From a virus, in the IMG/VR virus record IMGVR_UViG_3300037191_001576, positions 1 through 31,040 of that record: 31,040 bases of DNA, one strand, 5' to 3'. Within the stretch, counting starts at the first letter, position 1; each line of letters starts with the position of its first letter. The position numbers and the translations under genes were made by a program. Below the pieces are notes generated by a model, which worked only from the letters and a program-made list of their open reading frames with translations, was not told where the DNA came from and ran no database searches. This document shows, piece by piece, positions 38 through 29,160 of the stretch.

Positions 38-1552
38 ATGGCTAATTATTTCAGCAAATATCAAGGGCGCGGTGGCCCAGCAATAGCACCCGGCATTGTC
101 CAGATGATGGGCAGCATTGGCGATGAGTATGCGAAGGGCATTGAGGGGCTGGCCGAAGGGATTGATAAGTACCGGCAGAACAAGGAAAAACGTGAAATCC
201 TGACTGAGAAAGGGGAGTGGGTCGCTAACCAAAAAATGCAAAACTTGGCAGCGTGGATCGAAGAAGACCCCCAACGGATAGACTCCAAGGAACACGACGA
301 AAAGCTCAAAGACATTCAGAAATTCGGGGAAGGGATTGTCGATATGCCCCTCGGCAAACTGGAATCCGCCATATCCAACTACGCGATGGATGTGGAACTC
401 GAAAACCGGCGACAAACGAGGGAGATACAGAAAGCGGAAGTGGAGGAATCTAGGCGTCGGTTTGATGCGGGGCAGGAAGCCACACAGAATCGGTTTGAGG
501 CGGGGCAGGAAGCCGCCAGCCGAGCGGAAAACAGAACGATTGAAGACCGGAAGGAGGCGCGAGGGAAAGAGGATGCCTCAAGAGAAGTGCATAAAGCCTT
601 CGCCGCAATTCCGACGCAGACGGAGACTTCAAGAGCCGGGTACTTTGAGGAAAGGAAAGTTCCAAAAGCTCCAGCCGGAACAACGCCGACGAAAAATTAT
701 GATTCGTCAGAGGCGCGTATTGGAGATGCGGTTTCGATAATAAACGACACGATTAAATCGAAGCAGAAAGCACTGGGTAAGTTTGAAAAAGAGCTAACGG
801 ATCTGTATGAAAACAACACCGTAAAACCTCACGGAATAATTTTTGATAAAGACCGAGATGTGTTCAATGCAACGAAAGGTGCGAAGTCCCGTCTTGAAAA
901 AGATATTTCCGCGCTCGAAATGGACAGAGAATCTCTGGACGAAGCCTCTCCAATTCAAACATCGGACGAAGACCGACTGGAAGTATTAAACAGATATGTC
1001 ACTCCACTCGAACCAATGCAAGTTGGTGCAGATGTAGGAGAAGCCCCGGCTGCGCTAACGGAGTACATTTGGAATCCTCCATCAAAAGGAACCCGACCAA
1101 CCACGCAAATCGAGCGTCACCGCAAGATGCAAGAAATTCTTGTCGAACATGGTGGAGACTTGGGGATGGATGAGTTGGGTAAATTTAGAAAAGAAATGGG
1201 CAAGCTCGACCCGAACCAGCCGAGTCCGTTTAGGTATGAGAAAGGCCCGAACAACACTTGGTTGGCCACGCACCAAGGCACTGGAGCTACGGTTAATCTT
1301 GGGCAAGAGGGCCACATGAGCGCAACAGAGATTGGGTACATCCACAAGCGAGCAGATACTCAACTCAAGAGTCTCACGGAGGCGAAGAAGTTTCTTGAAA
1401 AAGCCCTATTCGAGTATGATGAAAAAGCCGCCGATGGTATGTCGAGCGAGGCAGAACTCAAGCCACTCAAAGACCGCTTGGAACGTGCCAAAGCGGCACT
1501 CGAACAAGAACAACCAATCCTAAAATACGGCTCCGGCGGCTGGGAAAACTAA
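38..1552 (+). CDS. Coiled-coil-rich phage virion-associated protein
   Basis: A protein of 504 aa, very rich in Glu, Lys and Arg, with long predicted helical stretches (about residues 40-190, 260-310 and 430-500) and no signal peptide or membrane segment. I recognise no enzymatic domain. The start is well supported by AAAGGAG at 21-27, ten bases before the ATG. The stop touches the ATG of the 1538-aa internal virion protein, so the two are probably translated together. In podovirus-like genomes, long helical proteins just before the giant internal protein are often virion or ejection components, and that is the inferred role. Residues about 141-160 contain a short internal duplication of a RF(D/E)AGQEA motif. 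The family is not recognised. Confidence 0.8.
   Translation: MANYFSKYQGRGGPAIAPGIVQMMGSIGDEYAKGIEGLAEGIDKYRQNKEKREILTEKGEWVANQKMQNLAAWIEEDPQRIDSKEHDEKLKDIQKFGEGIVDMPLGKLESAISNYAMDVELENRRQTREIQKAEVEESRRRFDAGQEATQNRFEAGQEAASRAENRTIEDRKEARGKEDASREVHKAFAAIPTQTETSRAGYFEERKVPKAPAGTTPTKNYDSSEARIGDAVSIINDTIKSKQKALGKFEKELTDLYENNTVKPHGIIFDKDRDVFNATKGAKSRLEKDISALEMDRESLDEASPIQTSDEDRLEVLNRYVTPLEPMQVGADVGEAPAALTEYIWNPPSKGTRPTTQIERHRKMQEILVEHGGDLGMDELGKFRKEMGKLDPNQPSPFRYEKGPNNTWLATHQGTGATVNLGQEGHMSATEIGYIHKRADTQLKSLTEAKKFLEKALFEYDEKAADGMSSEAELKPLKDRLERAKAALEQEQPILKYGSGGWEN
458..514 (+). repeat. 24-bp imperfect direct repeat inside the 504-aa gene
   Basis: Positions 458-481 and 491-514 are the same 24-bp sequence with one mismatch, 33 bp apart. 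They encode RF(D/E)AGQEA twice. The 33-bp period keeps frame (11 codons), so this is a small coiled-coil repeat expansion, not a regulatory site. Confidence 0.75.
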
Positions 1553-6591: not shown

Positions 6592-6607
6592 GATACGTTA
6601 AAGCCGC

Positions 6608-6657
6608 CCTGACTGGGGGTCAGGAGGTCGAGAGTTCGAATCTCTCTATCCCGACCA
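6608..6657 (+). other. attP core: 3' half of a tRNA-Pro(GGG) gene
   Basis: The 50 bp fold as the 3' half of a tRNA. The anticodon arm is CCTGA (6608-6612), loop CTGGGGG with anticodon GGG at 6615-6617, then TCAGG (6620-6624). A variable AGGTC follows, then a T arm GAGAG-TTCGAAT-CTCTC (6630-6646), acceptor strand TATCCCG (6647-6653), discriminator A and CCA. The matching 5' acceptor CGGGATA and a D arm are absent upstream, so this is not an intact tRNA. A tRNA 3' half next to an integrase is the classic attP, because integration then restores the host tRNA gene. Confidence 0.88.
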
Positions 6658-6716: not shown

Positions 6717-6763
6717 CTTGTACCGTGGGCTGTTCCCGCACACAAGGCGTCGGAAAACGCAAC

Positions 6764-7948
6764 ATGAAGCCCGAAAATGAGGTTCCCACATCTGACCAAA
6801 TCCCACTCTACTACCATGACAAAGGGCGAGTGCGGTTCATGTATCGGGGGCGATCCTACACATTGTTTAAGCCGAAGCTGGGTTCAAATTTCTACATAAA
6901 AATCCAGCGTCAGGGCTACCGCAAAACAACCTCCCTGCACACGGCCAACCCCGTTCAAGCCGTTACAATGGCCGTTGGGGTCATCGATTTCATGCTGACT
7001 GGCCTTGATCCAGAGGCGGTAAAGCAACCCTCACACGCCACCGCCGATTTAGTCACTCGTTCGTACCGGGTCATTGCCCTGCGCCACGGGCTGAAAGAGC
7101 GAACAATCGACGGGAACATTTCCTCGCTCAAGAAAATCATTGGGCGGCGCAAGTCGCTTCGCAGCTACCCAATCTCCAGACTCACGGGGAAACTCATCCG
7201 CGAGTTCATAGATTTTGAACTGGACTTGATCGCAGGGCAGGGTGAAGCCGCCCGGCAAACCAAACTTCGCAGCATCTATTCGGTGTTGAGGCAGGCGAAA
7301 TCTATTTTTAAGAAGGCGTTCCACTCCCGGTACGAGGACGCTGGAATTTATCTCGGCGACATCGAGGGCTTCATGCTCGAACAAGCCGAGGCTCCAGTTA
7401 CGGTGGACAAGGAACCACTGGAGGACGAGGTTGTGGAAGCCCTTGATGCGAAGGTGGAGTCAATCCGCGACACCCGGCCCGACTTCCACGCCGCCTATCT
7501 ACTGGCCAAGTCCACACTTCGCCGGGGGGAAATCCAGCGGGCCAAATGGGACTGGGTGCAGATGAAAAAGGGCCACCCGCATATTGTCATGTCGGCGGAT
7601 CAGAAGGGGAAAAGAGCCACCGCCATACCGCTCGACCCCAAAATATATGCCGCCCTCCAGCAATGGTATAAGTTGACCGAGGACAAGGAATACATTCTCC
7701 CCGAAGACGGATGGACGGGTGAACGCTGCGGCTACTTCATGAAGGAACTGGACAAGTGGTTTAAGGTCGAGGGTGGACTCAAAACGGACAAAACATTCCA
7801 CGAACTCCGCGCCCACACACTCCACACGATTCGGGAGAAATACGGGCTGGAAGTTGCGGCAACGGTGGGTCGCCACTCGGAGGCCGGAATCACCGCAAAA
7901 CACTACACTGGCAAGAAGCAAATCCCCGCCAATTTCAGCTTTCGATGA
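6764..7948 (+). CDS. int: Tyrosine-type phage integrase
   Basis: Site-specific recombinase of about 394 aa. An N-terminal arm/core-binding region (about residues 10-210) precedes the catalytic domain. Counting from the ATG at 6764, the catalytic set is intact: Arg253 in TLRRGEI, Lys281 in ADQKGK, His346 and Arg349 in FHELRAH, His371 in VGRHSE and nucleophile Tyr381 in AKHYTG. An in-frame GTG at 6725 would add 13 residues. I prefer the ATG because the extension is unlike integrase N termini, but neither start has a good ribosome-binding site. It lies directly downstream of the tRNA-Pro half-gene, so it should integrate the phage into that tRNA. A palindrome related to the repressor operators lies 41 bases after its stop. 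Confidence 0.93.
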   Translation: MKPENEVPTSDQIPLYYHDKGRVRFMYRGRSYTLFKPKLGSNFYIKIQRQGYRKTTSLHTANPVQAVTMAVGVIDFMLTGLDPEAVKQPSHATADLVTRSYRVIALRHGLKERTIDGNISSLKKIIGRRKSLRSYPISRLTGKLIREFIDFELDLIAGQGEAARQTKLRSIYSVLRQAKSIFKKAFHSRYEDAGIYLGDIEGFMLEQAEAPVTVDKEPLEDEVVEALDAKVESIRDTRPDFHAAYLLAKSTLRRGEIQRAKWDWVQMKKGHPHIVMSADQKGKRATAIPLDPKIYAALQQWYKLTEDKEYILPEDGWTGERCGYFMKELDKWFKVEGGLKTDKTFHELRAHTLHTIREKYGLEVAATVGRHSEAGITAKHYTGKKQIPANFSFR

Positions 7949-16221: not shown

Positions 16222-16455
16222 TCAACCGTTGTCGAGCCGGGCGTGGCGATTTAGAAATTCCACAACGCCGTCTTTGCCTTTGTCGATTTCATGTTTGAAT
16301 GGGCCGCCCCAACCCACGAAGTTTTTCTGGGTACTATGAGTCCGGTACGCGGCCCTCACTTTGGCTTTGATGCTGGATATGTCGGTTTTTGATTTGGCCC
16401 AATGTCTGATACTCCCGCGCCGGGTGTCGATCTGGGTTATTTGGTAGATAATCAT
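16222..16455 (-). CDS. 77-aa hypothetical protein
   Basis: A basic 77-residue product starting MIIYQITQIDTRRGS, chosen because its ATG overlaps the RlpA-like stop as ATGA; a longer start would intrude into that gene. It contains a helical stretch (ISSIKAKVRAAYRTH) and an aromatic FVGWGGPFKHEI motif. No family recognised. It is the last gene of the third leftward unit and is followed by the terminator-like hairpin. Confidence 0.6.
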   Translation of the reverse strand: MIIYQITQIDTRRGSIRHWAKSKTDISSIKAKVRAAYRTHSTQKNFVGWGGPFKHEIDKGKDGVVEFLNRHARLDNG

Positions 16456-16829
16456 TTCACAATCCTCCACCGGGGGCGAATCAGTCCGGCCTCTATTTGA
16501 GCCAATTTGGCAAACGCGCCGCTGGACAGGTCGAATTCCCGCCCCGCCACGAACGGCCCGCGATCCGTCACGGTTACGATTACGCTGCGCGGGCCTAGCT
16601 GGAACCGCACTCTAGTCCCAAAAGGCAGCGATTTATGAGCCACCGTTAGGGCCGCTGGATCGAAGGGCTGGCCGTTGGCCATGAGACGCCCCCGATATTT
16701 CTCCCCGTACCAACTCACCAATGCGTGGCGGTCTTCAGGCTTTTCAGGAGGTTGGGCAGGGTGAGACCCCACCCCCAACATAAAAATGGCGCAGAGGGCC
16801 ACTGGGGCGCAGAAAATGGCGGTTTTCAT
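16452..16829 (-). CDS. Exported RlpA-like double-psi beta-barrel protein
   Basis: A protein of 125 aa with an N-terminal signal peptide (hydrophobic residues 4-20). The RlpA barrel follows: SWYG at 39-42, TVAHKSLPFGT at 62-72 with His65, VTDRGPF at 87-93 with Asp89, and REFDLSSGAFAKL at 97-109. RlpA enzymes cut naked glycan strands at division septa. Here the position of the catalytic Glu (two residues after NG in the motif) is Gln54, 11 residues before the His as in Pseudomonas RlpA, so activity may be altered or lost. Export to the periplasm and a role in lysis or wall remodelling are likely. It joins both neighbours by ATGA overlaps. Confidence 0.85.
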   Translation of the reverse strand: MKTAIFCAPVALCAIFMLGVGSHPAQPPEKPEDRHALVSWYGEKYRGRLMANGQPFDPAALTVAHKSLPFGTRVRFQLGPRSVIVTVTDRGPFVAGREFDLSSGAFAKLAQIEAGLIRPRWRIVK

Positions 16830-17248: not shown

Positions 17249-17505
17249 ATGTCGGAGTAGTGGCTCGGAAACGCGTTGCGCCCGGTTGCGTATCGGTAGT
17301 AGGTGCGGAGGCGTTTCAAGTCATGCCAGCGCGTTGACCCCGCTTCGCAGTAGTTAAGGTCGAGCGTCGGCAACCGTTCGCAAAGCGCGTCGAAAGATTC
17401 ATCCGCGCAGTGTTTTTCGGTTAGCTCTTCGGCCCCGGCTCGCATTTCTGGAGTTAGTGGGAGTGTCTGGCCTTTTTTCAGCCTTGGTTTTGTTTTAGTT
17501 TTCAT
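17245..17505 (-). CDS. 86-aa hypothetical protein, first gene of leftward unit 3
   Basis: An 86-residue product with a very basic first 15 residues (MKTKTKPRLKKGQ), then an acidic helical region with Cys residues (EKHCADESFDALCERL) and a Tyr/Arg-rich end (LRTYYRYATGRN). An upstream in-frame GTG is part of the shared CAGTGAGA element, so the ATG at 17505 is preferred, as in the other units. No family recognised. Confidence 0.6.
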   Translation of the reverse strand: MKTKTKPRLKKGQTLPLTPEMRAGAEELTEKHCADESFDALCERLPTLDLNYCEAGSTRWHDLKRLRTYYRYATGRNAFPSHYSDI

Positions 17506-17582
17506 TTTTCTCACTGATTAAATCGGGCCGCTGGATTGCGCCCCCGTCGACGGCCCCCGCTTTGGAAGTCGCCGAAGGGGAG
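17506..17582 (-). promoter_or_regulatory. Leader of leftward unit 3 with CAGTGAGA element
   Basis: On the minus strand CAGTGAGA (17516-17509) stands three bases before the ATG. Upstream lies a GC-rich fold: on the plus strand GGGCCG (from 17525) pairs with CGGCCC about 28 bases further on. The GGCCGCTGG word is shared with the leader at 18464-18567. Confidence 0.5.
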
Positions 17583-18221: not shown

Positions 18222-18463
18222 GCGATCACCTCCCCGCCCTCGAAAACCCAGACCATGCCCGGCTCGGTATGCCCGCCGATCATGCCGCCCCGCCAATCAA
18301 GTTTTAGCTTTAAGGCCTCGGCGGCTTTTTTGTGGTTGCCGTCTATGTTTAGCGCGTGGTCATAACCAAGCGTAACGCTGGCCCCTTTGCTGCTGTTGGC
18401 GGCTTTGATTCGCGATCCTTTGGTGTTGGTCGCCCCTAGGTATTTTGTGTTTATTGTTTGCAT
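18218..18463 (-). CDS. 81-aa conserved hypothetical protein, first gene of unit 2
   Basis: An 81-residue product starting MQTINTKYLGATNTKG, followed by SRIKA, SVTLGYDHAL and NHKKAAEALKLKLDW. This pattern is shared by a widespread uncharacterised family found on phages, plasmids and in bacterial accessory regions. The ATG at 18463 follows CAGTGAGAAAA; an in-frame GTG lies inside that element and is disfavoured. It ends in an ATGA overlap with the 212-aa gene. Confidence 0.72.
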   Translation of the reverse strand: MQTINTKYLGATNTKGSRIKAANSSKGASVTLGYDHALNIDGNHKKAAEALKLKLDWRGGMIGGHTEPGMVWVFEGGEVIA

Positions 18464-18567
18464 TTTTCTCACTGTTTATGGTTTCTTTTCGTTGGCCGCT
18501 GGCTTCGCCGGGCTTCATTCCCGGTTGGATTGGTTTAGTTTCTCACTGTACCAACCCGGCCAGCGGC
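18464..18567 (-). promoter_or_regulatory. Structured leader of leftward unit 2
   Basis: GCCGCTGGC (18495-18503) and GCCAGCGGC (18559-18567) form a 9-bp outer stem. Inside, CCGGG (18508-18512) pairs with CCCGG (18520-18524), and GGTTGG (18523-18528) could pair with CCAACC (18551-18556) instead. CAGTGAGA occurs twice on the minus strand: inside the structure (18548-18541) and just before the ATG (18474-18467). This looks like a cis-acting RNA element. Confidence 0.5.
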
Positions 18568-19472: not shown

Positions 19473-19750
19473 GCGTTGGCCTCCCCATATGCGCTCTGGA
19501 TTTTTTCGCCGGTATGATCACAAATGAGCGTTTCATCTTCCCAGTTAACGTCCACGGCGACCACTTGCCACCCGTCATTACACTCGGTTTCAATCGAATC
19601 TTGCACTGATTCAATTTCCTGCTTTACGGCCTCGAATGAGAGGGCCGCGCCGTCACTCGTAATGAAAAAAAGCGGGTATCCGCCCGGCCATGCGAAGGGG
19701 CCGCTTTTCAATGTCTCATGTAGTTTTTTTGTGTTTTCTATTTTCATCAT
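19469..19750 (-). CDS. 93-aa hypothetical protein, first gene of leftward unit 1
   Basis: An acidic 93-residue product with LKSGPFAWPGGYPLFFITSDG near the start, then a helix (EAVKQEIESVQDSIE) and DGWQVVAVDVNWEDETLICDHTG. Two ATGs lie in tandem (19750 and 19747). The first abuts CAGTGAG exactly as in the orphan gene at 26628, so it is preferred; an upstream in-frame start would run through a GC-rich hairpin. The family is uncertain, though the CDHTG ending resembles small uncharacterised phage proteins. Confidence 0.62.
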   Translation of the reverse strand: MMKIENTKKLHETLKSGPFAWPGGYPLFFITSDGAALSFEAVKQEIESVQDSIETECNDGWQVVAVDVNWEDETLICDHTGEKIQSAYGEANA

Positions 19751-19968
19751 CTCACTGATTTTTTGCACCGCCCTTTGCGGCACGGCGAAGAATGTACATT
19801 AAAAACAGAAAGTGGCAACCTTTATTTTTCTCATTATTTCAACCAACCCCACTTTACCCCCGGAAACATTGGCCAGAACGCACCAAAGTTTTTTTGCTTT
19901 TTTCGTTTCGGGGCGCGTATATTAGGTGCGGTTCGGGTCGGTTTGGGCCGGTTCGGGTCGGTTTTTGA
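19751..19968. promoter_or_regulatory. Divergent control region between leftward unit 1 and packaging operon
   Basis: 218 bp without a gene. Next to the leftward start it holds CAGTGAGA (19757-19750) and a CCGC-CCTTT-GCGG hairpin. The middle is AT-rich, and the right end is the phased G-rich array A (19930-19969). No convincing -35/-10 pair is seen on either strand. Confidence 0.6.
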
Positions 19969-19969
19969 A
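19930..19969 (+). repeat. Array A: 10-bp phased GGTTYGGGNN repeats
   Basis: Units are GGTTCGGGTC (19930-19939), GGTTTGGGCC (19940-19949), GGTTCGGGTC (19950-19959) and the capping unit GGTTTTTGAA (19960-19969). The last A is the first base of the next gene's ATG. The same four-unit order occurs inverted at 26866-26905. Confidence 0.88.
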
Positions 19970-20571
19970 TGGCAGGAAATAAGAACAGCGGCAACCCCGG
20001 CCCGCCTAAAAACAAGACTCCACTTGAGAAAGAAACTCAAATTGTGTCATCGCTGAAAGAAGGCAAAGGGATCGCCGAGACCGCCGCGCTAGTTGGGGTC
20101 AGTAAGGGCACGGTTCAGCGGCTACGATACGAAAACGCGGAGGACTTGCCAAAGTGGCGAAAAAATACCGCACAGACCATGATGCGCGTCCATTCAAAGT
20201 TACTGGACACGTTGGAACAGTCGATTGACAACACTGAACCGGGCGCAAAAACACTGGCCACGGTTTCCATTTCTCTCGGTATTTTATCGGATAAACTTAA
20301 AGACATTCAGCAAACCGGGCCGCAAATTGTCGAGCATCGGCATCTCCACGTTAATCATTCCGACGTTAATTCCCTACTTTCTGACAATAAGTCAGGAGGC
20401 GAAGGGCCAAAACAAAGGGAAAACGCCACACATGAGACACAACGGGACACAATCACCGACACTCCCACCGCCCCGATCGACGTTGAGCCTTTGAACGAGT
20501 CCGAACCGCCGGGCGAGGGCACAAAGAGGGGGGGAGGGGGTCGAGCAACTTCCGCCGCTCTGGATACATAA
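19969..20571 (+). CDS. HTH protein, candidate terminase small subunit
   Basis: A protein of 200 aa. A polar basic N terminus (MAGNKNSGNPGPPKNK) precedes a helix-turn-helix at about 32-52 (GIAETAALVGVSKGTVQRLR). A long helical region (about 60-115) follows, then a disordered, charged tail. Terminase small subunits often show HTH plus oligomerisation helices plus a flexible tail, and this gene heads the operon carrying the large terminase, so TerS is the leading guess. A transcription regulator is the alternative. The ATG directly follows array A, which could be its binding site, either as packaging signal or operator. Confidence 0.6.
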   Translation: MAGNKNSGNPGPPKNKTPLEKETQIVSSLKEGKGIAETAALVGVSKGTVQRLRYENAEDLPKWRKNTAQTMMRVHSKLLDTLEQSIDNTEPGAKTLATVSISLGILSDKLKDIQQTGPQIVEHRHLHVNHSDVNSLLSDNKSGGEGPKQRENATHETQRDTITDTPTAPIDVEPLNESEPPGEGTKRGGGGRATSAALDT

Positions 20572-20608
20572 TGGATTTAGCTGTTACAAAATTTTTTATA
20601 AAAAGGGC

Positions 20609-20983
20609 ATGAAGGAGGCTGAATTAGCAGAATATCTCGGCGTTCCACGGACGCAACTCGTCAAGTTCCGCAAGGAAAACCCCGACTACACCTACAAAGT
20701 CGGCCCCGCAATCCACTGGACTGAAGGCGGCAGCGCGGCTCTCTACATTGAACTCGGCCTTGACCATCCACCTGACTACAAGCCGAAAGAGGTTTTCGCC
20801 ACCACTGGAAAGTGCGTTTTCCCAAACAAAAACTTGGTGGAGGCCCGGCTGGACGATGGCAAGCAGATACTAGTACGAGTGCGCGACTCATCCATGTTCG
20901 TCCCAAAGATGCGGATACCGATAAAACCGAACGGGAACGGGTGGACGGTGACGCGACAGCCCAAGCGGCGCGGGAGAATATGA
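20609..20983 (+). CDS. Hypothetical protein with MerR/HTH-like N terminus
   Basis: A protein of 124 aa. The first 40 residues (MKEAELAEYLGVPRTQLVKFRKEN) look like a small HTH that discriminates sites, followed by IHWTEGGSAALYIELGL. The second half is strand-rich (KCVFPNKNLVEARLDDGKQILVRVRDSSMF) with a basic end (RQPKRRGRI). A DNA-binding packaging or regulatory factor is plausible. It lies 37 bases after the TerS-like gene and ends in ATGA overlap with the next one. Confidence 0.65.
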   Translation: MKEAELAEYLGVPRTQLVKFRKENPDYTYKVGPAIHWTEGGSAALYIELGLDHPPDYKPKEVFATTGKCVFPNKNLVEARLDDGKQILVRVRDSSMFVPKMRIPIKPNGNGWTVTRQPKRRGRI

Positions 20984-21288
20984 TCACTGAAAGCTACGAA
21001 CAGGAGAAGGAAGGAATCACGGCGGTGGCGTGTGCCGTTCTGGAGCAGGCGGCGAAGGACTACTGGAAGCTGAAGGATGGGAAAGGCGAGAACGTGAAAA
21101 TTAGTGGCGATGTGATTCCGAGGAAATTTACCCAGATGGCGATTGAGAGATTCTTCTCCGAAGACGGAGGAGCGCAACACTACTTGGATTTGGCGAATTC
21201 AAAAATTTCAACCCACGCAATTTTAACCCGACTAAAAAGCCACCAAGCCACCCAGCAAAGACGCCCCACCCGGCGCGGGTACGAATGA
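20980..21288 (+). CDS. 102-aa conserved phage protein
   Basis: The start is the ATG at 20980, overlapping the previous stop as ATGA; longer in-frame extension runs across the upstream gene and is spurious. The protein is helical: ITAVACAVLEQAAKDYWKL (about 12-30), then FTQMAIERFFSEDGGAQHYLDLAN (about 51-74) and ILTRLKSHQ. The FF-S-GGA-YLDLAN pattern occurs in small phage proteins near terminase genes; function unknown. Confidence 0.7.
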   Translation: MITESYEQEKEGITAVACAVLEQAAKDYWKLKDGKGENVKISGDVIPRKFTQMAIERFFSEDGGAQHYLDLANSKISTHAILTRLKSHQATQQRRPTRRGYE

Positions 21289-21304
21289 GGACTTGAAGAC
21301 AAAT

Positions 21305-21637
21305 ATGAAAACTGACCGAGATAAATTGGCCGCGAACGTCGCGGAGGGGCTGGAACTGAAGACCGACATGGGGCGTGAGATTGTGAAAGTCGCACTGGAA
21401 TGTGTGAAGCTGTTTGACGAGAAGCAACTCGACTACGGCAGCACAAACATATCGACCTCTGGAGAGATCGGTGTGGCGGTTCGGATTCAAGACAAGGCTA
21501 GTCGAATGCGGCACATATTGCTTAAAGGGATGCGTGGAGAGAAGGGCGTTAAGAATGAGCCGCTTGTGGACACCTACCAAGACGTAGCGAACTACGGCAT
21601 GATTGGAATGCTGTTGAATCGCGGGCACTGGAAATAA
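21305..21637 (+). CDS. Nmad1/DUF1599 nucleotide-modification-associated protein
   Basis: A helical protein of 110 aa. KQLDYGSTNI (about 42-51), then GVAVRIQDKASRM (about 59-71) and DTYQDVANYGMIGMLL (about 90-105) match the DUF1599 family, named nucleotide modification associated domain 1 because it accompanies base-modification genes in phages. Its chemistry is not established; the all-helical form with acidic DTYQD and RIQDK motifs recalls nucleotide-binding folds. The ATG at 21305 is preferred over an in-frame TTG four codons earlier. It sits between packaging genes, hinting at DNA modification or nucleotide handling at packaging. Confidence 0.8.
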   Translation: MKTDRDKLAANVAEGLELKTDMGREIVKVALECVKLFDEKQLDYGSTNISTSGEIGVAVRIQDKASRMRHILLKGMRGEKGVKNEPLVDTYQDVANYGMIGMLLNRGHWK

Positions 21638-21642
21638 AAGCA

Positions 21643-22101
21643 ATGCGCTCTGTTGATAAAACTGGTGAAGGGTTCGTGTATTTTGTGACGGAGGAAACGC
21701 CCGGCGGGCTTGAACATTTGAAGATTGGGCGGTCTAAAACCCCCGAAAATCGGATTACAGATATGCAAATTGGGAACTCTCGACAGTTAACTTTGGTGGG
21801 TTGTTTAGAGGGGGGCGCGGAACTGGAGCGTTCGTTCCACCAACTGTTCGGGCCGTTGCGCCACCGAGGGGAGTGGTTTCTGTACACGGAACCGTTAAAA
21901 GCAGTGGTGGGGTGTTTGGATTTCTGGAAACCGATTGAGGTGGTTGAAGTGGAGGAGCCTACCCAAGCGGAGCAGCCGCCCCTTGCGCTGCCCTTCGGCG
22001 CACTTAAAGAAACCACTTTAATAGAAGTTAATGGTGAAACTCGGACATTAGCCGAGTGCATATGTGTGGCGGCCATGCAGAATCGACCAAGCTGGAAATA
22101 A
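21643..22101 (+). CDS. GIY-YIG nuclease of the T5orf172/MUG113 type
   Basis: A protein of 152 aa. GFVYFVTEE (about 9-17) gives the first strand. LKIGRSKTPENRITDMQIGN (about 26-45) contains the catalytic-like Arg and the second strand. AELERSFHQLFGPLRHRGEWF (about 58-78) holds the conserved His, Arg and GEWF with the metal-binding Glu. These fit the MUG113/T5orf172 branch of GIY-YIG nucleases. The C-terminal half carries no recognised domain. It ends directly before the large terminase ATG; some phages need a small nuclease beside TerL for genome cutting, so a packaging role is possible, as is a homing nuclease. Confidence 0.85.
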   Translation: MRSVDKTGEGFVYFVTEETPGGLEHLKIGRSKTPENRITDMQIGNSRQLTLVGCLEGGAELERSFHQLFGPLRHRGEWFLYTEPLKAVVGCLDFWKPIEVVEVEEPTQAEQPPLALPFGALKETTLIEVNGETRTLAECICVAAMQNRPSWK

Positions 22102-23733
22102 ATGGCATTCACCCCCACACCGCACCCTGTACTCGTCGTCCCATCCAAGGCGAGGATGCAGGAGTTTGCGGATCGTGGAGACGAGGGGCTGGACGAACTA
22201 GCCCGCGCACTGGAGCAGCGCGAGCAACTAATCCAACTGGAAAAAGAAGACCCCTATCGCTACGGGTTCGAACCCCCCAACTGGAAAGACGCAGACGAAC
22301 TCTGGAAGGGCTGCGGCGAATTGCTGATACAGGGGGGCAACCGGGCTGGAAAGAGCGAATACGCGGCCAAGCGGATTGTCCAAGTGATGACTGCCAAGAA
22401 AGGCGCGAAAGTTTGGGTGTTGGGAATGACGGCTCAATCCAGTATTCGAGATCAGCAGCAACTCGTTTACAAATACATCCCGACCGAGTGGAAGAACATT
22501 AAGAAGGGTCGCGTGCAAAATGTGAGCTTTTCGCAAAAGAATGGCTTCACCGAAAACACCTTCGTCCTCCCCAACGGCTCGCAGTGTTGGTTCATGAATT
22601 ATTCGCAGGAGATGCGAGTGATCGAGGGTGGAGAGGTGGATATGATTTGGTGTGATGAGCTTGTGCCGCTCCCGTGGATTGAGACGTTGCGGTTTCGGTT
22701 GGTGACGCGGGCGGCGAGCCACGACCTCTCTGGAAAGCTGCTAATCACATTCACGCCGGTGGAAGGCTACACCCCCACGGTGAAGGAATACATATCGGGG
22801 TATCGGGTGCTGGAGGCGCGACCTAGTCCACTTTTGGGGGGAACAGTGAACGTCCCCGGTTGCCCAACTGGAACCATGCCATACACGGCTCAATGTAGGC
22901 GACCTGCTGCAAGGTTGATGTGGTTCTTCACCGACATGAACCCATACAACCCGTATGAGGAAATGAAGAAAACCCTTAACGGGGAGAACAGCATACAGAT
23001 TAAGTTGCGGGCGTATGGGTATGCGGAGAATCTCGCTGGAAGCCAGTTCCCGAAATTTTGTGAGGCACACACACTGGAGGCCGACAAGATTCCAGAGAAA
23101 GGCACAAACTACATGGCGGTTGACCCCGCGTGGAATCGGAATTGGTTTGTGCTTTGGTTGAGGGTGGATGATCGAGGGCGCAAATACATTTACAGGGAGT
23201 GGCCCAATTTAGACGAGTATGGGGAGTGGGCCGTGCCGGGGGATAAGTCTGATGGTGCGCCCGGCCCGGCGCAGAGCGTGGGGGCTGGACGCGGGCTTCC
23301 AGAAGTGAAGGCGATAATCAGCGATCTGGAGCAGGACGAGGAAATGGAGATTCGATACATCGACCCTCGCGCTGGAGCCAGTCAAGCAGCGGGCCGCGAA
23401 GGCGGGACAAGCATTATTGACTTACTGGGGGAAGGCGAAGACCCCATGTATTTTGAGCAAGCCGCTGGAATCTCAGTGGCCAACGGCCTAACAGTTGTAA
23501 ATGACTGGTTAAACTACGACCAGAACGACCCCGTAACGGCGGTTAATGAGCCGAGCCTCTACATAAGTAAAGCGTGTGGAAACCTGATTTATAGTTTGCA
23601 AGAGTGGACGGGGCGCGACGGGGAAAAGGGCGCGAGTAAGGATTGCATAGACACGCTTCGATATTTGGCCGTGATGGATCCGATTTTCGTGGATGATAAA
23701 ACCTTTGCTGGATCGGCAGTTGGCACATACTGA
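22102..23733 (+). CDS. terL: Terminase large subunit
   Basis: A protein of 543 aa. ATPase domain: Walker A GGNRAGKS at 78-85, followed by Walker B VDMIWCDE at 179-186 with the catalytic Glu. RNase H-like nuclease domain: YMAVDPAWNRNW near 335 with the first Asp, YIDPRAGAS near 417 with the second, and DTLRYLAVMD near 523 with the last. Together they form the DNA-packaging motor that pumps genome into the procapsid at the portal and cuts it. The stop overlaps the next ATG by one base (TGATG). The gene begins immediately after the GIY-YIG nuclease stop. Confidence 0.95.
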   Translation: MAFTPTPHPVLVVPSKARMQEFADRGDEGLDELARALEQREQLIQLEKEDPYRYGFEPPNWKDADELWKGCGELLIQGGNRAGKSEYAAKRIVQVMTAKKGAKVWVLGMTAQSSIRDQQQLVYKYIPTEWKNIKKGRVQNVSFSQKNGFTENTFVLPNGSQCWFMNYSQEMRVIEGGEVDMIWCDELVPLPWIETLRFRLVTRAASHDLSGKLLITFTPVEGYTPTVKEYISGYRVLEARPSPLLGGTVNVPGCPTGTMPYTAQCRRPAARLMWFFTDMNPYNPYEEMKKTLNGENSIQIKLRAYGYAENLAGSQFPKFCEAHTLEADKIPEKGTNYMAVDPAWNRNWFVLWLRVDDRGRKYIYREWPNLDEYGEWAVPGDKSDGAPGPAQSVGAGRGLPEVKAIISDLEQDEEMEIRYIDPRAGASQAAGREGGTSIIDLLGEGEDPMYFEQAAGISVANGLTVVNDWLNYDQNDPVTAVNEPSLYISKACGNLIYSLQEWTGRDGEKGASKDCIDTLRYLAVMDPIFVDDKTFAGSAVGTY

Positions 23734-23930
23734 TGAGGTTGTTTGAGCTACCAGTGTTGGTGAGGCCCGACGAAGCGGCGGCTGTCACTGGATTGAGCAA
23801 GAAACAACTGGCGCAACTTGCGAAGTTAAATGCGCTACGAATTTACAGGACGGTGGGTGATCATCGTCGGTATTACAGGGACGACTTAATTAAACACTTA
23901 AAAGGGGAAAAGAAAGATGGAGATAGTTGA
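23733..23930 (+). CDS. Small MerR/excisionase-type HTH protein
   Basis: A protein of 65 aa. RPDEAAAVTGLSKKQLAQLAKLN (about 10-32) is a classic helix-turn-helix, followed by the wing YRTVGDHRRYYRDDLIKHL (about 38-56), as in MerR-like and excisionase domains. It is squeezed between terL and the portal gene, overlapping both (1 bp and 14 bp). That place is unusual for a regulator. It could be a recombination directionality factor, a late regulator, or an additional terminase-associated DNA-binding protein. Confidence 0.78.
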   Translation: MRLFELPVLVRPDEAAAVTGLSKKQLAQLAKLNALRIYRTVGDHRRYYRDDLIKHLKGEKKDGDS

Positions 23931-26010
23931 TAAATTAGCGAAGGCAGAGGACACACCAGATGTGCGGGAATTGGCAGCGGAATACAGCCGAAGCCTACAC
24001 GATGGGGAGTCACTGGATAAAATATCTGATGTGGACAACATTAGATTCACCCGCTGGACGGGGCAAACCACGGACGGGCGCAAGCACAGCGAAGACCTAC
24101 CAGATGGGAAAGAAGCGTTCCCTTGGGAGGGCGCGAGCGACACCCGCATTCCGTTGGCCGACCAGATTATAAACGACACGGTGGATGTGCTGACCACCTC
24201 GTTTGGCCGGGCCACACTGAAGATCGGGGGGACTGAGATTGGTGACTCCGAGGCCGCTGGAGTGGCGAGCAGCATGATGCGGTGGCAGCGCGACACGAAG
24301 CTCTACCACACGCTAAACCGCGAATCCGAGTTGTTGGCCCAATACGGGCAGCAATATGGGTGGAGCGCGTTGTTCGTGGGGTGGGAGCAGAAGAGCGCAG
24401 TGAAGGCGGTTAAGGTGACGATGGATGAGATCATGGCCTTGGCGCAGCAAGTGGGGGGCGAACTGGAGGCATTGCCCGACATGATCAATGATCCAGAGTC
24501 GGAGACTCATGTGGTGGAGATTTTGCGAGCGCAATTCCCCGGCCTCGAAACAAGCAAGGCGCGAAAGGCAGTTAAGGAACTGCGCGAAACTGGAGAAACA
24601 CTTCTTCCGCAGGCATATTTGGCGGTGAACCAACCGACCATAGTGGCGTTGAAGCCGTGGGAAGAGATTTCGTTCCCGCCCGAAACCGTGGATTTGCAAT
24701 CGGCGCGAGTGATATTCCGCCGGTTGTTTATGACGGAGGTGGAGTTGCGGGCGAAGGTTGTGGATGAAGGCTGGAACGAGGAGTGGGTCGAGGCCGCAGT
24801 CAAGACGGGTGGCCGCTCGACGGAGTTCCACGACTTCGGGGTTCAGTTGAGTGACCTGACAGGTAGCCACGTTGACCGACAAGACAACCTAATCGAAGTG
24901 GTGTATGCATACAGTCGCCAACTGGACGACAACAACATACCCGGCATCTATTACACGATATTCAGCCCGATAGCCCAAACTGGAGAGGGCGGCGAGGACA
25001 TTCATGCGAAGCACGAACTACTCGACTACGTTCACTGCCGCTACCCATTTGTCGAATACCGCAGGGAAAAACTCAAACGCCGCATCACGGAGAGCCGTGG
25101 AGTGCCGGAAATCTGCCGGACTTGGCAGGACGAGATCAAGACCCAGCGGGACTCAATATACGACTCGACGAGTTTCGAGACGCTCCCGCCCATCATGGTG
25201 AACAAGCGGCTTGGGTTGGCGAACAAAGTTGGCCCGGCGGTGCAGTTGCCGGTGATGAAGGCTGGAGACTACGAGTTCATGCGCCCCCCGGCGCGGCAAC
25301 CCACGACTGCGTTTAATCTGATTAACGCCGTGGAGCGACAGGCGGATGCCTATTTTGGCCGCGCCAACGCAGAAGTGCCCACGGTACAGACGCAACTCAA
25401 GCAGCAGCGACTTGTCAACAACTGGTTAATAGTGTGGACAGAGGCGTATCAGCAGATGTTCCAGTTGAGCTTGCAATATCTGGAGCCAGAAGAAATCCAG
25501 CGCATCACTGGAACGGAGGTTGTTCCAGAGTCGGATATGTACCAGTTTGACTTCGTGCTGAAATACGATGTGCGAGAGCTAGACACAGAGTATGTGGCGA
25601 GCAAACTCTCAAACATCGCACAATATGTTGTGCCACAGGACGTATCTGGAGTGCTGGATCGTAACAAGTTGATCAGCATGATTACGAGGGCGATCAGTCC
25701 CGACATTGCGGAGGAACTAATCATCGACCAAGCCCCGGCTTCAAAGAAGATGTATGAGGACGTTAAGGGTCAGATTGGCCAGATGATGTTGGGCAACGAG
25801 GCTAGTTACACGGAGAACGACCCCGCCGCCCAAACCAAGATGCAATACGCGCAGGAGATTGTTGGGCGCAACCCGAAGGCGCAGCAGGCGTTGCAGGGTG
25901 ACGAACTGTTTATGCAGTTGTTCGAGAACTACACGAAGAATCTGCAAATGTCGTTGATGCAGCAGCAAAACGCTCAAATAGGGCGAATAGGAGTGAGTCA
26001 AGTAACATGA
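23917..26010 (+). CDS. Portal protein
   Basis: A protein of 697 aa. The N-terminal region with RFTRWTGQTTDGRKHS and FPWEGASDTRIPLAD (about 43-85) is a signature of large podovirus-like portal proteins. A long alpha/beta core follows, with QDEIKTQRDSIYDSTS near 407-422, and a Gln-rich helical C terminus (about 610-697) like the barrel/crown of portals. The portal forms the dodecameric ring for DNA entry and tail attachment and binds TerL. It starts inside the end of the HTH gene (14 bp overlap, AAAAGAAAG before the ATG) and ends in an ATGA overlap with the 74-aa gene. Confidence 0.9.
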   Translation: MEIVDKLAKAEDTPDVRELAAEYSRSLHDGESLDKISDVDNIRFTRWTGQTTDGRKHSEDLPDGKEAFPWEGASDTRIPLADQIINDTVDVLTTSFGRATLKIGGTEIGDSEAAGVASSMMRWQRDTKLYHTLNRESELLAQYGQQYGWSALFVGWEQKSAVKAVKVTMDEIMALAQQVGGELEALPDMINDPESETHVVEILRAQFPGLETSKARKAVKELRETGETLLPQAYLAVNQPTIVALKPWEEISFPPETVDLQSARVIFRRLFMTEVELRAKVVDEGWNEEWVEAAVKTGGRSTEFHDFGVQLSDLTGSHVDRQDNLIEVVYAYSRQLDDNNIPGIYYTIFSPIAQTGEGGEDIHAKHELLDYVHCRYPFVEYRREKLKRRITESRGVPEICRTWQDEIKTQRDSIYDSTSFETLPPIMVNKRLGLANKVGPAVQLPVMKAGDYEFMRPPARQPTTAFNLINAVERQADAYFGRANAEVPTVQTQLKQQRLVNNWLIVWTEAYQQMFQLSLQYLEPEEIQRITGTEVVPESDMYQFDFVLKYDVRELDTEYVASKLSNIAQYVVPQDVSGVLDRNKLISMITRAISPDIAEELIIDQAPASKKMYEDVKGQIGQMMLGNEASYTENDPAAQTKMQYAQEIVGRNPKAQQALQGDELFMQLFENYTKNLQMSLMQQQNAQIGRIGVSQVT

Positions 26011-26231
26011 TGCAAAATCTGTCAGCGTTCCAGTGGCAGGGGGAGAACCCGCTTTGGAATATCCTGCTGGAAAATCTGGACGCCGCCATCGATGTGGAGA
26101 TGGTGACGGCGGTTAGCGCGGACACGGTTGGGGAGGCGAGAGTTCACCAAGCGGGTCGCGCCGATGCGCTGCTGGATTTTAAGAACCATTTGGTTGAGTT
26201 AAGAGAGAGTGCAGTCTCGAAGCTCAACTGA
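26007..26231 (+). CDS. 74-aa hypothetical protein after portal
   Basis: A helical acidic 74-residue product with WQGENPLWNILLENLDAAI at the start and LLDFKNHLVELRES at the end. It overlaps the portal stop as ATGA and is the last gene before a strong terminator. Small head or connector proteins often sit here; no family is recognised. Confidence 0.65.
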   Translation: MMQNLSAFQWQGENPLWNILLENLDAAIDVEMVTAVSADTVGEARVHQAGRADALLDFKNHLVELRESAVSKLN

Positions 26232-26267
26232 TATGTCAGTGTAGTTGCATAGTCCATATTAGTAGTG

Positions 26268-26302
26268 GCCGCTCATCCTGTAATGGGGTGGGCGGCTTTT
26301 TT
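26268..26302 (+). terminator. Strong intrinsic terminator of the packaging operon
   Basis: An 11-bp stem (26268-26278 with 26286-26296, three G-T pairs) and a 7-base loop are followed by six T (26297-26302). It stands 36 bases after the 74-aa gene stop and ends the terL-portal transcript. Confidence 0.88.
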
Positions 26303-26343
26303 GTAAACCCCCGCCCCCGGTTAAGAGGGCGAGGGCGCGTTCA

Positions 26344-26628
26344 TCATAGCATTAACAATTTAGGACTTATTTGGTTAGCCAAGTCTCTGGCGATGTTTCG
26401 ATATGTTGAACAGATGGTATTGGGGTAAACGCCTTGGGCATTGTAGTCAAAACTCCAATGCTCGAAGTTTTCAACTAATACTTTGATGTGATCTTCTGTA
26501 ACCGTTTCGTTAACTTTTACATAATCGCCATCATTAGAAGGACAATATATGCGAACTGGAAACACTTCACCTAGCAAGTGCTTGGTGTAGACTTCCTTGA
26601 TTTGATCTAGTTTTGTTATTTCTTTCAT
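26344..26628 (-). CDS. Leftward orphan hypothetical protein
   Basis: A protein of 94 aa starting MKEITKLDQIKEV, with FPVRIYCPSNDGDYVKVNE, then a helix HIKVLVENFEHWSF and a C-terminal NTICSTYRNIARDLANQI. It is visibly more A/T-rich than the neighbouring genes and the only leftward gene in the virion half, suggesting a late acquisition. Its ATG abuts CAGTGAG, the same element that opens the leftward units at 16-20 kb, which ties its control to theirs. No family recognised. Confidence 0.7.
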   Translation of the reverse strand: MKEITKLDQIKEVYTKHLLGEVFPVRIYCPSNDGDYVKVNETVTEDHIKVLVENFEHWSFDYNAQGVYPNTICSTYRNIARDLANQISPKLLML

Positions 26629-26827
26629 CTCACTGTTTTATGTGTGTTTTTAGTTTCAGTTAATCTGCCCATCACTCGATAGGCGGCGTCCATTATATCA
26701 AACCGGGTTTTCCAAAATCACGAAATCGAGAGGTTTCGGCTGAAAAATGTTTCTGGTTGTTAGGAAATAAAAAAATAAAAAAAAGAGTTGACGCGCTTTT
26801 TTGGAAAACCTGCTTGAACTCATAAGG

Positions 26828-26850
26828 GCCGTCTTCGGGGCGGCTTTTTT
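26828..26850 (+). terminator. Terminator-like hairpin upstream of the capsid operon
   Basis: GCCGTC (26828-26833) pairs with GGCGGC (26839-26844, one G-T pair) around TTCGG, followed by six T (26845-26850). No rightward gene ends here, so it may end a short untranslated RNA or act as an attenuator. Confidence 0.65.
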
Positions 26851-26865
26851 CTTCTCGGTGGCATT

Positions 26866-26915
26866 TTCAAAAACCCACCCAAACCCTCCCGAACCTACCC
26901 AAACCGACCCCCCGA
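26866..26915 (-). repeat. Array B: inverted copy of the 10-bp phased G-rich repeats
   Basis: On the minus strand: degenerate unit TCGGGGGGTC (26915-26906), then GGTTTGGGTA (26905-26896), GGTTCGGGAG (26895-26886), GGTTTGGGTG (26885-26876) and cap GGTTTTTGAA (26875-26866). It has the same period, unit count and cap as array A, in opposite orientation. Confidence 0.88.
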
Positions 26916-26933
26916 CCTAACTATTTTTTGCAC

Positions 26934-26965
26934 CCCCACTCTTATAGGCGTTTAAGAGGTGTGGG
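26934..26965 (+). repeat. Bulged hairpin in the capsid-operon leader
   Basis: TCTTA (26940-26944) pairs with TAAGA (26953-26957). Beyond a bulged G, CAC pairs with GTG, and CCC with GGG after a bulged T. It lies about 55 bases before the scaffold ATG and may shape the leader RNA or be a protein site. Confidence 0.4.
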
Positions 26966-27018
26966 TTTCTGCAAACCATAAAAATGCTGCCAGCCAAACT
27001 TGCGGGCTATAAAGAAGC

Positions 27019-28074
27019 ATGAACGATAAGGGATTCGAAGCCGAGGGTGACGCGGCACAAACGGAAGTCACAACGAATGTCGGCGAACTTTTGGACGCTG
27101 ACGGATTAGCGAGCCAACTGGAAAGGCTGTTGGAACGCGCACCGGAAGAAGCACCGGCCTTGGAAGACGAGGAAAAAGCTAAAGGCGAACAGCCTCCCGT
27201 TGAAGGTGAGTTGAGTGACCCACCAGAGGATGAGGCTAAAGCTGAAGAAGAAGCTCTTTCTCAGACTGAAGAAGAAACTGCGGAAGCTGAACCGGCTTTA
27301 GATGCCGATGAGCCATCCGAAAAGGACAAAGCCAACAAGGGTTTGTTCAAGCGGATCGACAAACTCACGGCGAAAAGGCGCGAAGCAGAAGGCAGGGTTG
27401 ACGGACTGGAAGCCGAGATTCGGACTTTACGCACTGAATTGGACGCCAAGGAGGAACTTCCACCGCTACCGCCCGTTGATGGGAACCCATATAGCCGTTT
27501 GAAATCGACTCAAGAAGTTGATCGAGAAATGGATCAAGCCGAAGAGGTGCTTGAATGGTGTGAGGATAATACGGATGGCGCGTTGGTTAAAAACTCAAAA
27601 GGCGACGAAGTCGAATATAGTGCCGAGGAAATTCGGGGGATTAAAAAGAATGCCCGCAAATCCATTAAAAAGCACTTACCGAACCGGCGAGAATACTTGA
27701 AGGAAGAGGCTGCGGTAGCGCAGCAAGTAGAGCAAGCATTCCCATACTGGAAGGACAGGAGTTCCGAGGGCTATCAAGAAGCTATGGAAATCCTTCGTAA
27801 CAGGCCAGACATTCGCAATCACCCAACATGGAAAGCAGACGTTAGCGTGTTTCAGCTAGGGTTACAGGCTTACCGGGAGATGGTGAACAACCCTACTCAA
27901 AAGGCAGCGGCGAAGAAGGCGGTTAAGAAAGCCCCCGGACAACCCGCCGCCCCGGCTGCGGCCCCGGCCACAACTGGCGCATCTAAAGCCCGTTCAGTTT
28001 CCGCGAGAAAAAACTTTGGTTCTGAGAATTCAGTGGATTCTTTAGCGACAATATTAGAATCGGACTATATGTAG
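27019..28074 (+). CDS. Scaffold-like protein
   Basis: A protein of 351 aa. The first 105 residues are strongly acidic and disordered (Glu/Ala/Pro rich), followed by a coiled coil at about 110-150 (FKRIDKLTAKRREAEGRVDGLEAEI). A helical domain (about 165-300) follows, then an Ala/Lys/Pro linker (about 295-325) and a short C-terminal segment ending in DYM. Acidic, coiled-coil, helix-ending proteins directly before the major capsid gene are typical internal scaffolds that guide procapsid assembly. The 74 bp before the ATG are weak in Shine-Dalgarno sequence. Codon choice is richer in T-ending codons than in the packaging genes, as in the capsid gene. Confidence 0.8.
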   Translation: MNDKGFEAEGDAAQTEVTTNVGELLDADGLASQLERLLERAPEEAPALEDEEKAKGEQPPVEGELSDPPEDEAKAEEEALSQTEEETAEAEPALDADEPSEKDKANKGLFKRIDKLTAKRREAEGRVDGLEAEIRTLRTELDAKEELPPLPPVDGNPYSRLKSTQEVDREMDQAEEVLEWCEDNTDGALVKNSKGDEVEYSAEEIRGIKKNARKSIKKHLPNRREYLKEEAAVAQQVEQAFPYWKDRSSEGYQEAMEILRNRPDIRNHPTWKADVSVFQLGLQAYREMVNNPTQKAAAKKAVKKAPGQPAAPAAAPATTGASKARSVSARKNFGSENSVDSLATILESDYM

Positions 28075-28101: not shown

Positions 28102-29160
28102 ATGGCACTTCTTTTAGAACAAGGATACAACGGTCTTCAATCGGGTGGCCGAGAAGACTTATCCAACCTTATCGCAAATGTTGACGCAAAATCCACTGTT
28201 TTCACCAGTTTAGCAAAGAAGGGCAAGAAGCCCGGCAATGTTGCTATGGGTTGGCAGATGGATAAATTCTCTGCGGCAGCACTAGGCGGAACGGTGGAAG
28301 GTACTGATGTGGATATGACTTCTGCAAGCAGTTTTACCAGCCCCGCAGAAGATCGAGTATTGGCACAGAACTACGCGCAGATTTTCCGTCGCGTGTTTCG
28401 TGTTTCGAGCTTGGCAGACGAAATCCAAGTTGTCGCAGGCGTAAGGAACGAGCTTGCAAACGGTATCGCCAAGAAATTGGTGGAACTCAAGCGCGACATG
28501 GAGATGACGTTCTTGAACGATCAAGACGCACAGGCAGACGCAGGAGGCACAACTCCATATTTGACCAAAGCACTGGGTTCGTTCTTGGATGCTGACGGTC
28601 AAACTGGATCAGCTTGCGCTTTCCAAGTGAACTCGAAGTATTATTGCGCGAACAGCTTGCCCAACGGCGGAGCGACTACTACAACCCCCCCTACCGCTGC
28701 GGAGCTTACGGAGGGTAATGTTCAAGACGTTCTTAAAAAGATATACGAAGAAACTGGAGAGATTCGGGATTACGATGTTCTTGTTGGGACTGCGTTGAAG
28801 CGGGCATTCACTAGCTTCACCCAATCGGCAACCGGGTCTAATGATCGTCTTGCGATTAAGACGTTTAATCAAGCAGCCAGCGATAAGTCATTCATAAATG
28901 TTGTGGATGTTTTCGAGGGTGATTTTGGCCGGATGCGGGTACACCCCACGACACATATCTCGCAAACGTCTGGGGGCACTAACCGAAACTACCTTGGGTA
29001 CATTATACCGTTTGACAAGGTGGAAATCCGTTATGGCAAATTGCCGCAGATTAAGGAACTCCAAGACAACGGTGGTGGCCCCGCAAGGCTCATTGAGGCT
29101 GTCGCGGCGTTGATAGTCACCAACCCTAAAGGCTTTGGTAAGCTGGACTGTACCGGATAA
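28102..29160 (+). CDS. Major capsid protein (DUF5309/SU10 type)
   Basis: A protein of 352 aa. LSNLIANVDAKSTVFTSLAKKGK (about 20-42) followed by MGWQMDKF (about 49-56) is the hallmark start of the DUF5309/SU10 major capsid family, a HK97-fold group found in diverse podovirus-like and other tailed phages. The central LVELKRDMEMTFLNDQDAQ (about 126-144) and the C-terminal PFDKVEIRYGKLPQIKELQDNGG (about 304-326) also fit. Hundreds of copies form the shell. It follows the scaffold by 27 bp. Like the scaffold gene it lacks the CTGGA/TCCAG enrichment of the other genes, probably from codon selection for high expression. Confidence 0.88.
   Translation: MALLLEQGYNGLQSGGREDLSNLIANVDAKSTVFTSLAKKGKKPGNVAMGWQMDKFSAAALGGTVEGTDVDMTSASSFTSPAEDRVLAQNYAQIFRRVFRVSSLADEIQVVAGVRNELANGIAKKLVELKRDMEMTFLNDQDAQADAGGTTPYLTKALGSFLDADGQTGSACAFQVNSKYYCANSLPNGGATTTTPPTAAELTEGNVQDVLKKIYEETGEIRDYDVLVGTALKRAFTSFTQSATGSNDRLAIKTFNQAASDKSFINVVDVFEGDFGRMRVHPTTHISQTSGGTNRNYLGYIIPFDKVEIRYGKLPQIKELQDNGGGPARLIEAVAALIVTNPKGFGKLDCTG

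Follow-up and report, generated by a model that had tools for sequence, protein, structure and literature searches.

The 31-kb virus record IMGVR_UViG_3300037191_001576 of IMG/VR (hereafter "the window", i.e. the whole stretch of DNA analyzed) contains two short arrays of 10-bp repeats, termed A and B. One reaches the start of a gene for a protein resembling small terminase subunits (TerS), and the other lies upstream of a scaffold-like gene. We estimate at roughly 70% the probability that both are operators for gp23733, a 65-residue winged helix-turn-helix (HTH) protein resembling BldC and the excisionases, whose gene belongs to the same operon as terS, the gene for the large terminase subunit (terL) and the portal gene. 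The type of site is already known; what is new is its place, the location of the regulator within a packaging operon, and the respelling of the units from lineage to lineage.

Array A (19930 to 19969) reads GGTTCGGGTC GGTTTGGGCC GGTTCGGGTC GGTTTTTGAA, and its final A doubles as the A of the terS ATG (19969). Array B, on the minus strand from 26905 to 26866, reads GGTTTGGGTA GGTTCGGGAG GGTTTGGGTG GGTTTTTGAA. In both, the units are direct repeats with a period of exactly 10 bp, and seven of the ten positions (GGTTYGGGNN) are identical within an array. Together, A and B constitute a 30-nt inverted repeat with 87% complementarity, the two sites being ~7 kb apart. The initial annotation had described an inverted pair of phased GGTTYGGGNN arrays of three units plus a cap, and both the unit-by-unit reading and comparisons with shuffled sequence confirm that description. 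A two-unit pattern with up to three mismatches gave nine matches where 1.79 were expected, a number attained in none of 100 shuffles. When the sequence was compared with itself at a lag of 10, 24 of 30 positions matched at B and 23 of 30 at A; across the whole window, 60 dinucleotide shuffles never gave more than 21 (mostly 17–18), and the only value above 20 at any other lag was a single lag-12 window, at 21. Arrays A and B are real, far beyond chance, and the 31-kb window holds no further four-unit array of the GGTTYGGGNN motif. Array B is shorter than originally drawn: 26866–26905 belong to it, but 26906–26915, while G-rich, are out of phase.

Relatives were gathered by a TerL search of viral contigs (80 relatives; the best 80 per scan of more than 600 matching stretches) and by two alignment searches (~140 more); they are named here by handles such as L011 only where necessary. 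Arrays had been expected in close relatives, and they occur there at the same two places. Among relatives whose TerL is 77–97% identical, the unit varies in spelling but not in its 10-bp phase: clade 2 has RGTTTTNNNN at both sites, L065 and L067 have RGTTTGGRNN, and the TerL 77–80% group has a looser GGTTNNGNNN. Of the earlier characterization as G-rich phased arrays, the phase is thus conserved but the G-richness is not. Site A is weaker in some relatives: L065/L067 have two units there, and L034 has no clear one. Site B had been placed in a divergent intergenic region; however, the minus-strand open reading frame (ORF) at 26344–26628 is absent from most relatives, so that site B is usually not divergent. 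The two sites co-vary within a lineage, the matching of each A to its own B ranking 2 of 120 permutations, and this joint drift points to one trans-acting factor that reads both. At greater distance, site B of L072 (TerL 57%) retains two and a half units, the last of them T-rich, and L092 (TerL 42%) has three GGTTYGGG arrays, all on the gene-sense strand and two of them in the late region. As a separate observation, the region upstream of scaffold in seven relatives with TerL of ~44–48% (L208, L209, L210, L223, L224, L225 and L230) holds arrays phased at 10 bp but built from unrelated words (CCCGTTTNNN, GGTTGATTTN); in some members of that clade, e.g. L211, L215 and L224, terL is immediately followed by a weak match resembling gp23733.

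Which protein do the arrays follow? Array B is found in 25 of 25 carriers of gp23733 (TerL 77–97%) and in 0 of 17 members of a TerL 70–75% clade lacking that gene. The TerL tree places this clade inside the gp23733 carriers; in its members the portal gene comes directly after terL, TerS is retained, and arrays are missing at both sites. A search of whole non-carrier contigs, up to 42.7 kb in length (up to 38.7 kb for this clade), did not detect gp23733, while four control carriers scored. A second contrast comes from elsewhere in the tree, where five of five carriers (L254, L255, L259, L262 and L277) have a two-unit 10-bp site of different spelling, AAAATGCTATAAAATCG, upstream of scaffold vs. 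none of eight non-carrier sisters. Among dereplicated regions upstream of scaffold, lag 10 was the best of 12 lags in ~16 of the 37 from carriers (~3 expected) and in none of the seven from non-carriers. In unselected intergenic regions, a few of the cases behind the lag-10 excess are simple tandem repeats.

The HTH of TerS behaves differently from that of gp23733. L011 combines a window-type array with a TerS HTH of 42% identity. In clade 2 the array is a different one and the TerS HTH is 69% identical, and in L069 and L079, whose array is of the clade-2 type, the TerS HTHs are 33–36% identical. In contrast, the identity of gp23733 tracks array type, being 100% in L011 and ~46% in clade 2. 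Co-loss, the independent contrast and this tracking all point to arrays that follow gp23733 and not TerS, which argues against the packaging role that the initial annotation had suggested.

Profile and structure comparisons indicate what sort of protein gp23733 is likely to be. It narrowly passes the NCBIfam excisionase-domain model TIGR01764 (29.9 bits vs. a cut-off of 28.8), with the L072 homologue falling just under (27.7 bits), and it is far below the cut-off of the BldC family NF033787 (20.4 vs. 77 bits). A profile built from 48 homologues matched the BldC–DNA complexes 6AMK (E = 2e-8) and 6AMA (4e-7) in the PDB, followed by RdfS (8DGL, 1.5e-3). The best Foldseek matches of the predicted model (pLDDT 84) are BldC–DNA chains and then Pukovnik Xis; a packaging-motor winged HTH, 7LW0, appears at rank 42. 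By these measures, gp23733 has a predicted winged HTH fold of the MerR/Xis type.

The arrays hold consistent positions with respect to promoter-like hexamers. The putative terS promoter was read from the sequence and is conserved in L007, L008 and L011. In clades 1 and 2, array A begins 6–7 bp after the −10-like hexamer and runs as far as the terS ATG, which is where a site for repressing gp23733's own operon would be expected to lie. In clade 1, L061, L065/L067 and most members of the 77–80% group, the edge of array B lies 21–22 bp from a weak −35-like hexamer (TTGCAC, TTGCCA, TTGCAA or TTGACG); in clade 2, TTCGAC is found by eye at a similar distance, and seven loci of another clade share a spacing of 18 bp with differing sequence in between. 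The combination of fixed spacing and a weak promoter gives B the look of an activator site. Moreover, the scaffold promoters of non-carriers are stronger (a mean of 9.2 vs. 7.7 of 12 matches; 5.1 vs. 4.1 of 6 at the −35 hexamer, often a perfect TTGACA), as would be expected if carriers rely on an activator. Two of the functions initially suggested, a late-promoter activator site and an autoregulatory operator, fit these data at B and A, respectively.

From the sequence and the modeled fold, we infer the following mechanism. One monomer of gp23733 would dock on each 10-bp unit, and neighboring monomers would stack head-to-tail, forming a short filament along a single face of the helix. At B, the filament's edge would lie 22 bp upstream of the weak −35 hexamer, and its most likely effect would be activation of the scaffold/capsid operon. 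At A, the filament would cover the first ~40 transcribed bases and the terS start codon, most likely repressing the operon from which gp23733 itself is made.

Other explanations must be weighed. The initial annotation entertained array A as a pac- or cos-like packaging site bound by the 200-residue TerS-like protein; indeed, the array abuts terS, the product has weak similarity to Sf6 TerS, and the direct repeats of SPP1 pac span promoters and the start of terS (PMC4737164). We nonetheless find this improbable: the TerS HTH does not track array type, viruses that carry TerS without gp23733 have no arrays, the array has an inverted counterpart ~7 kb away, with promoter-like hexamers at a fixed distance from both, and the DNA-binding domains of SF6 TerS are little specific for box repeats (PMC4737164). 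It is also unlikely that gp23733 binds the arrays as a packaging-specificity factor, in the manner of the winged HTH of lambda TerS or of RppC from phage-inducible chromosomal islands, instead of as a regulator of transcription. The gene's location between terL and portal, the MerR-like winged HTH domains of lambda TerS and RppC (PMC6739421), and the presence of 7LW0 in the Foldseek list would suit such a factor. However, BldC and Xis are clearly closer to gp23733 than are the packaging proteins, site B keeps a fixed spacing from a promoter that is stronger in non-carriers, and whole clades have lost gp23733 while retaining terL, portal and TerS, which suggests that it is dispensable for packaging.

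The remaining explanations fare worse. That the arrays act through DNA shape alone, by phased-tract curvature or like UP elements, would account for the exact helical phase despite drifting sequence and for the phased A/T-tracts of the clade-2 units; yet the seven-of-ten identity within the arrays exceeds the needs of curvature, and their absence goes with the loss of a single gene in separate regions of the tree, making this very unlikely. We give still less credence to an RNA-level element in the terS mRNA (a leader structure, attenuator or G-quadruplex). Array A does lie in the putative 5′ leader and was terminator-like by scan, but RNA folding of the arrays is unremarkable (z from −1.7 to +1.6) and not common to the clades, array B is antisense to scaffold, the clade-2 arrays lack G-runs, and there is no Rfam match. 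Finally, the 30-nt inverted repeat might be thought to bound an invertible 7-kb segment subject to site-specific inversion; because all relatives showing both sites have the segment in one orientation, we consider this extremely improbable.

Several observations weigh against gp23733 as the reader of the arrays. Some viruses outside the window's clade, e.g. L075, L083, L258, L264 and L305, carry gp23733 without a clear array upstream of scaffold. The gene g20609 is likewise not found in the array-less clade, and other genes co-vary with clade. The counts of carriers and non-carriers are phylogenetically non-independent and the non-carrier samples small; starred branches of the TerL tree force at least four changes of the gp23733 label, which amounts to a handful of independent contrasts. 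In L092, the site-B arrays have the opposite orientation, and a loosely similar HTH ORF there goes undetected by the gp23733 profile. Neither proposed promoter was called by a generic promoter scan, both having been read from alignments. Finally, gp23733 has Q28 at the position of the guanine-contacting Arg30 of BldC (K or R in close relatives, L in clade 2), implying that the base contacts differ. The leucine of clade 2 coincides with an array without the GGG core; this fits a joint change of protein and site but is only suggestive.

How does gp23733 compare with known systems? BldC and excisionases such as Apl of phage 186 bind cooperatively to direct repeats about one helix turn apart (PMC7498355, PMC5859096). 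The initial annotation knew of no described element with this sequence; that statement holds for the sequence itself, but the architecture is that of this known type of site. Apl binds direct repeats 10–11 bp apart and needs several adjacent operators (PMC7498355); with four units per site at 10 bp, A and B exceed the three adjacent repeats at one-helix-turn spacing that define an operator of the Apl type. Apl, lambda Xis and P2 Cox are recombination directionality factors, i.e. small DNA-binding proteins with repeats of this spacing, and some of them also regulate promoters (PMC7498355). Unlike their operators, A and B have an exact 10-bp period and lie not at att or an early switch but at late structural operons, 12–20 kb from the integrase gene and the tRNA-like attP candidate, and gp23733 is encoded in the packaging operon. 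A functional excisionase would have sites at attP beside the integrase gene; no array of the GGTTYGGGNN motif is found near the integrase gene (6725–7948) or the attP candidate. The latter, a likely attP core at 6604–6656, corresponds to the 3′ half of a sequence like tRNA-Pro(GGG) and precedes the integrase gene by ~70 bp; tRNA and Rfam scans were empty.

BldC of Streptomyces, which provides the closest solved structures by both profile and fold, binds direct repeats spaced by 9 bp (PMC5859096), assembling head-to-tail on variable numbers of them (PMC5859096, PMC6428758), and has been reported both as a repressor and as an activator (PMC6428758). Its whiI unit, AATTCGGAC, has TTCGG in common with the array unit GGTTCGGGTC. 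The resemblance is partial, as the arrays have a 10-bp period and an RGTTY core vs. the 9-bp AATT(N3-4)(C/G) of BldC, and they do not qualify as BldC sites. RdfS of ICEMlSymR7A is likewise an oligomeric winged HTH protein, but it has an extra N-terminal oligomerization helix and no consensus motif, unlike the well-defined motifs of the gp23733 system (PMC11963761). The direct repeats of SPP1-type pac also lie over a promoter and the start of the small terminase gene (PMC4737164); the present repeats differ in following gp23733 and not TerS, and in having a second, inverted copy at the scaffold promoter.

The coordinates of these features are collected below. The window also encodes an integrase, an exonuclease, a DNA polymerase and a primase-like protein. 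Neither the portal-like nor the scaffold-like protein has a family match in PHROGs or Pfam, and the predicted TerS structure (pLDDT 63) is too weak to settle the identity of that protein. The terS gene is hypervariable, with 47–78% identity among viruses whose TerLs are 95–97% identical, while the array preceding it is kept. The L018 contig has two terS variants, one at each end and each behind an array; what appeared to be a third array in that contig is a second copy of site A before the second variant.

Relatives by TerL and portal are rare among described phages, numbering four of 50,697 phage records. The nearest, phage C75C1, has a TerL that is 32% identical and no array of the GGTTYGGGNN motif. 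No TerL relatives were found in bacterial genome contigs. The strict three-unit pattern picked out 56 stretches there; they come from unrelated taxa, are largely long open frames or tandem decanucleotide repeats, and give no host signal. One of them, in a Burkholderiales contig (L123, 2793–2850, reverse complement), has four copies of GGTTTGGGTA followed by the cap-like GGTTTTTGAAATG; it lies at the start of a chromosomal PPK2-like (polyphosphate-kinase-like) gene and is probably a coincidence.

Three further features of the window deserve mention. The leader upstream of the scaffold gene (26964–27018) contains a hairpin-like CTG-stem-loop-stem-CTG element, e.g. TTTCTGCGT..AACGCTG, which very distant relatives retain. 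By eye, the changes in its stem look compensatory (GCGT/ACGC, GCA/TGC, GGG/CCC), making it a candidate structured 5′ untranslated region. A 28-nt repeat of the TTTTCATTTTTCTCACTGATTA type occurs at the starts of minus-strand genes (17493–17520, 18451–18478, 19734–19761 and 26612–26639) and is apparently a common translation-start region (CAGTGAGAAAAATGAAAA). A small secreted RlpA-like protein (16452–16829, minus strand; phrog match to a lipoprotein precursor) is encoded in the window and also in the L018 contig.

Table. Arrays, putative promoters and late-region genes (window coordinates except for the distant relatives)
Feature	Position	Strand	Basis or remark
Putative terS-operon promoter	19894–19923	+	TTGCTT (19894–19899), 18-bp spacer, TATATT (19918–19923); array A 6 bp later
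Array A	19930–19969	+	Four 10-bp units, 3 × GGTTYGGGNN + cap GGTTTTTGAA; reaches terS start codon
TerS-like HTH protein, 200 aa	19969–20571	+	Weak HTH_23 match; low-confidence model, best Foldseek matches Sf6 TerS, E 0.035
Terminase large subunit (terL)	22102–23733	+	PF03237 and phrog_979
gp23733, 65-aa excisionase/BldC-like winged HTH	23733–23930	+	Between terL and portal; TIGR01764, PDB profile, Foldseek
Portal-like protein, 697 aa	23917–26010	+	Follows terL; matches records annotated portal
Intrinsic-terminator-like hairpin	26824–26848	+	Just before array B
Array B	26866–26905	-	Four 10-bp units, 3 × GGTTYGGGNN + cap GGTTTTTGAA; reads away from scaffold promoter
Putative scaffold/capsid promoter	26928–26956	+	TTGCAC (26928–26933), 17-bp spacer, TTTAAG (26951–26956); 22 bp from array B
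Scaffold-like acidic protein	27019–28074	+	Position before major capsid protein, composition; first gene of operon proposed under site B control
Major capsid protein, SU10 type	28102–29160	+	PF17236 3e-44, phrog_1328 2e-48
GGTTYGGG arrays, distant relative L092	1350–1380 and 3876–3906	-	
GGTTYGGG array, same distant relative (L101)	168–191		

For the capsid operon of this virus group, which is widespread but has hardly any described members, these results supply a candidate regulator together with its sites. They also provide a clean comparative system in which a protein of the BldC/excisionase type and its operators change together, because the spelling differs between clades while the 10-bp phase is constant, and because the regulator has been lost along with its sites at more than one place in the tree. 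More tentatively, and with less confidence than we place in the operators themselves, this large uncultured group of tailed viruses may possess a motor-to-capsid switch, in which a gp23733-type filament would shut down the motor operon at A and turn on scaffold and capsid at B, with the protein and its operators re-evolving by lineage. Such an arrangement suggests a simple way in which the amount of packaging motor relative to coat protein could be set by a virus.

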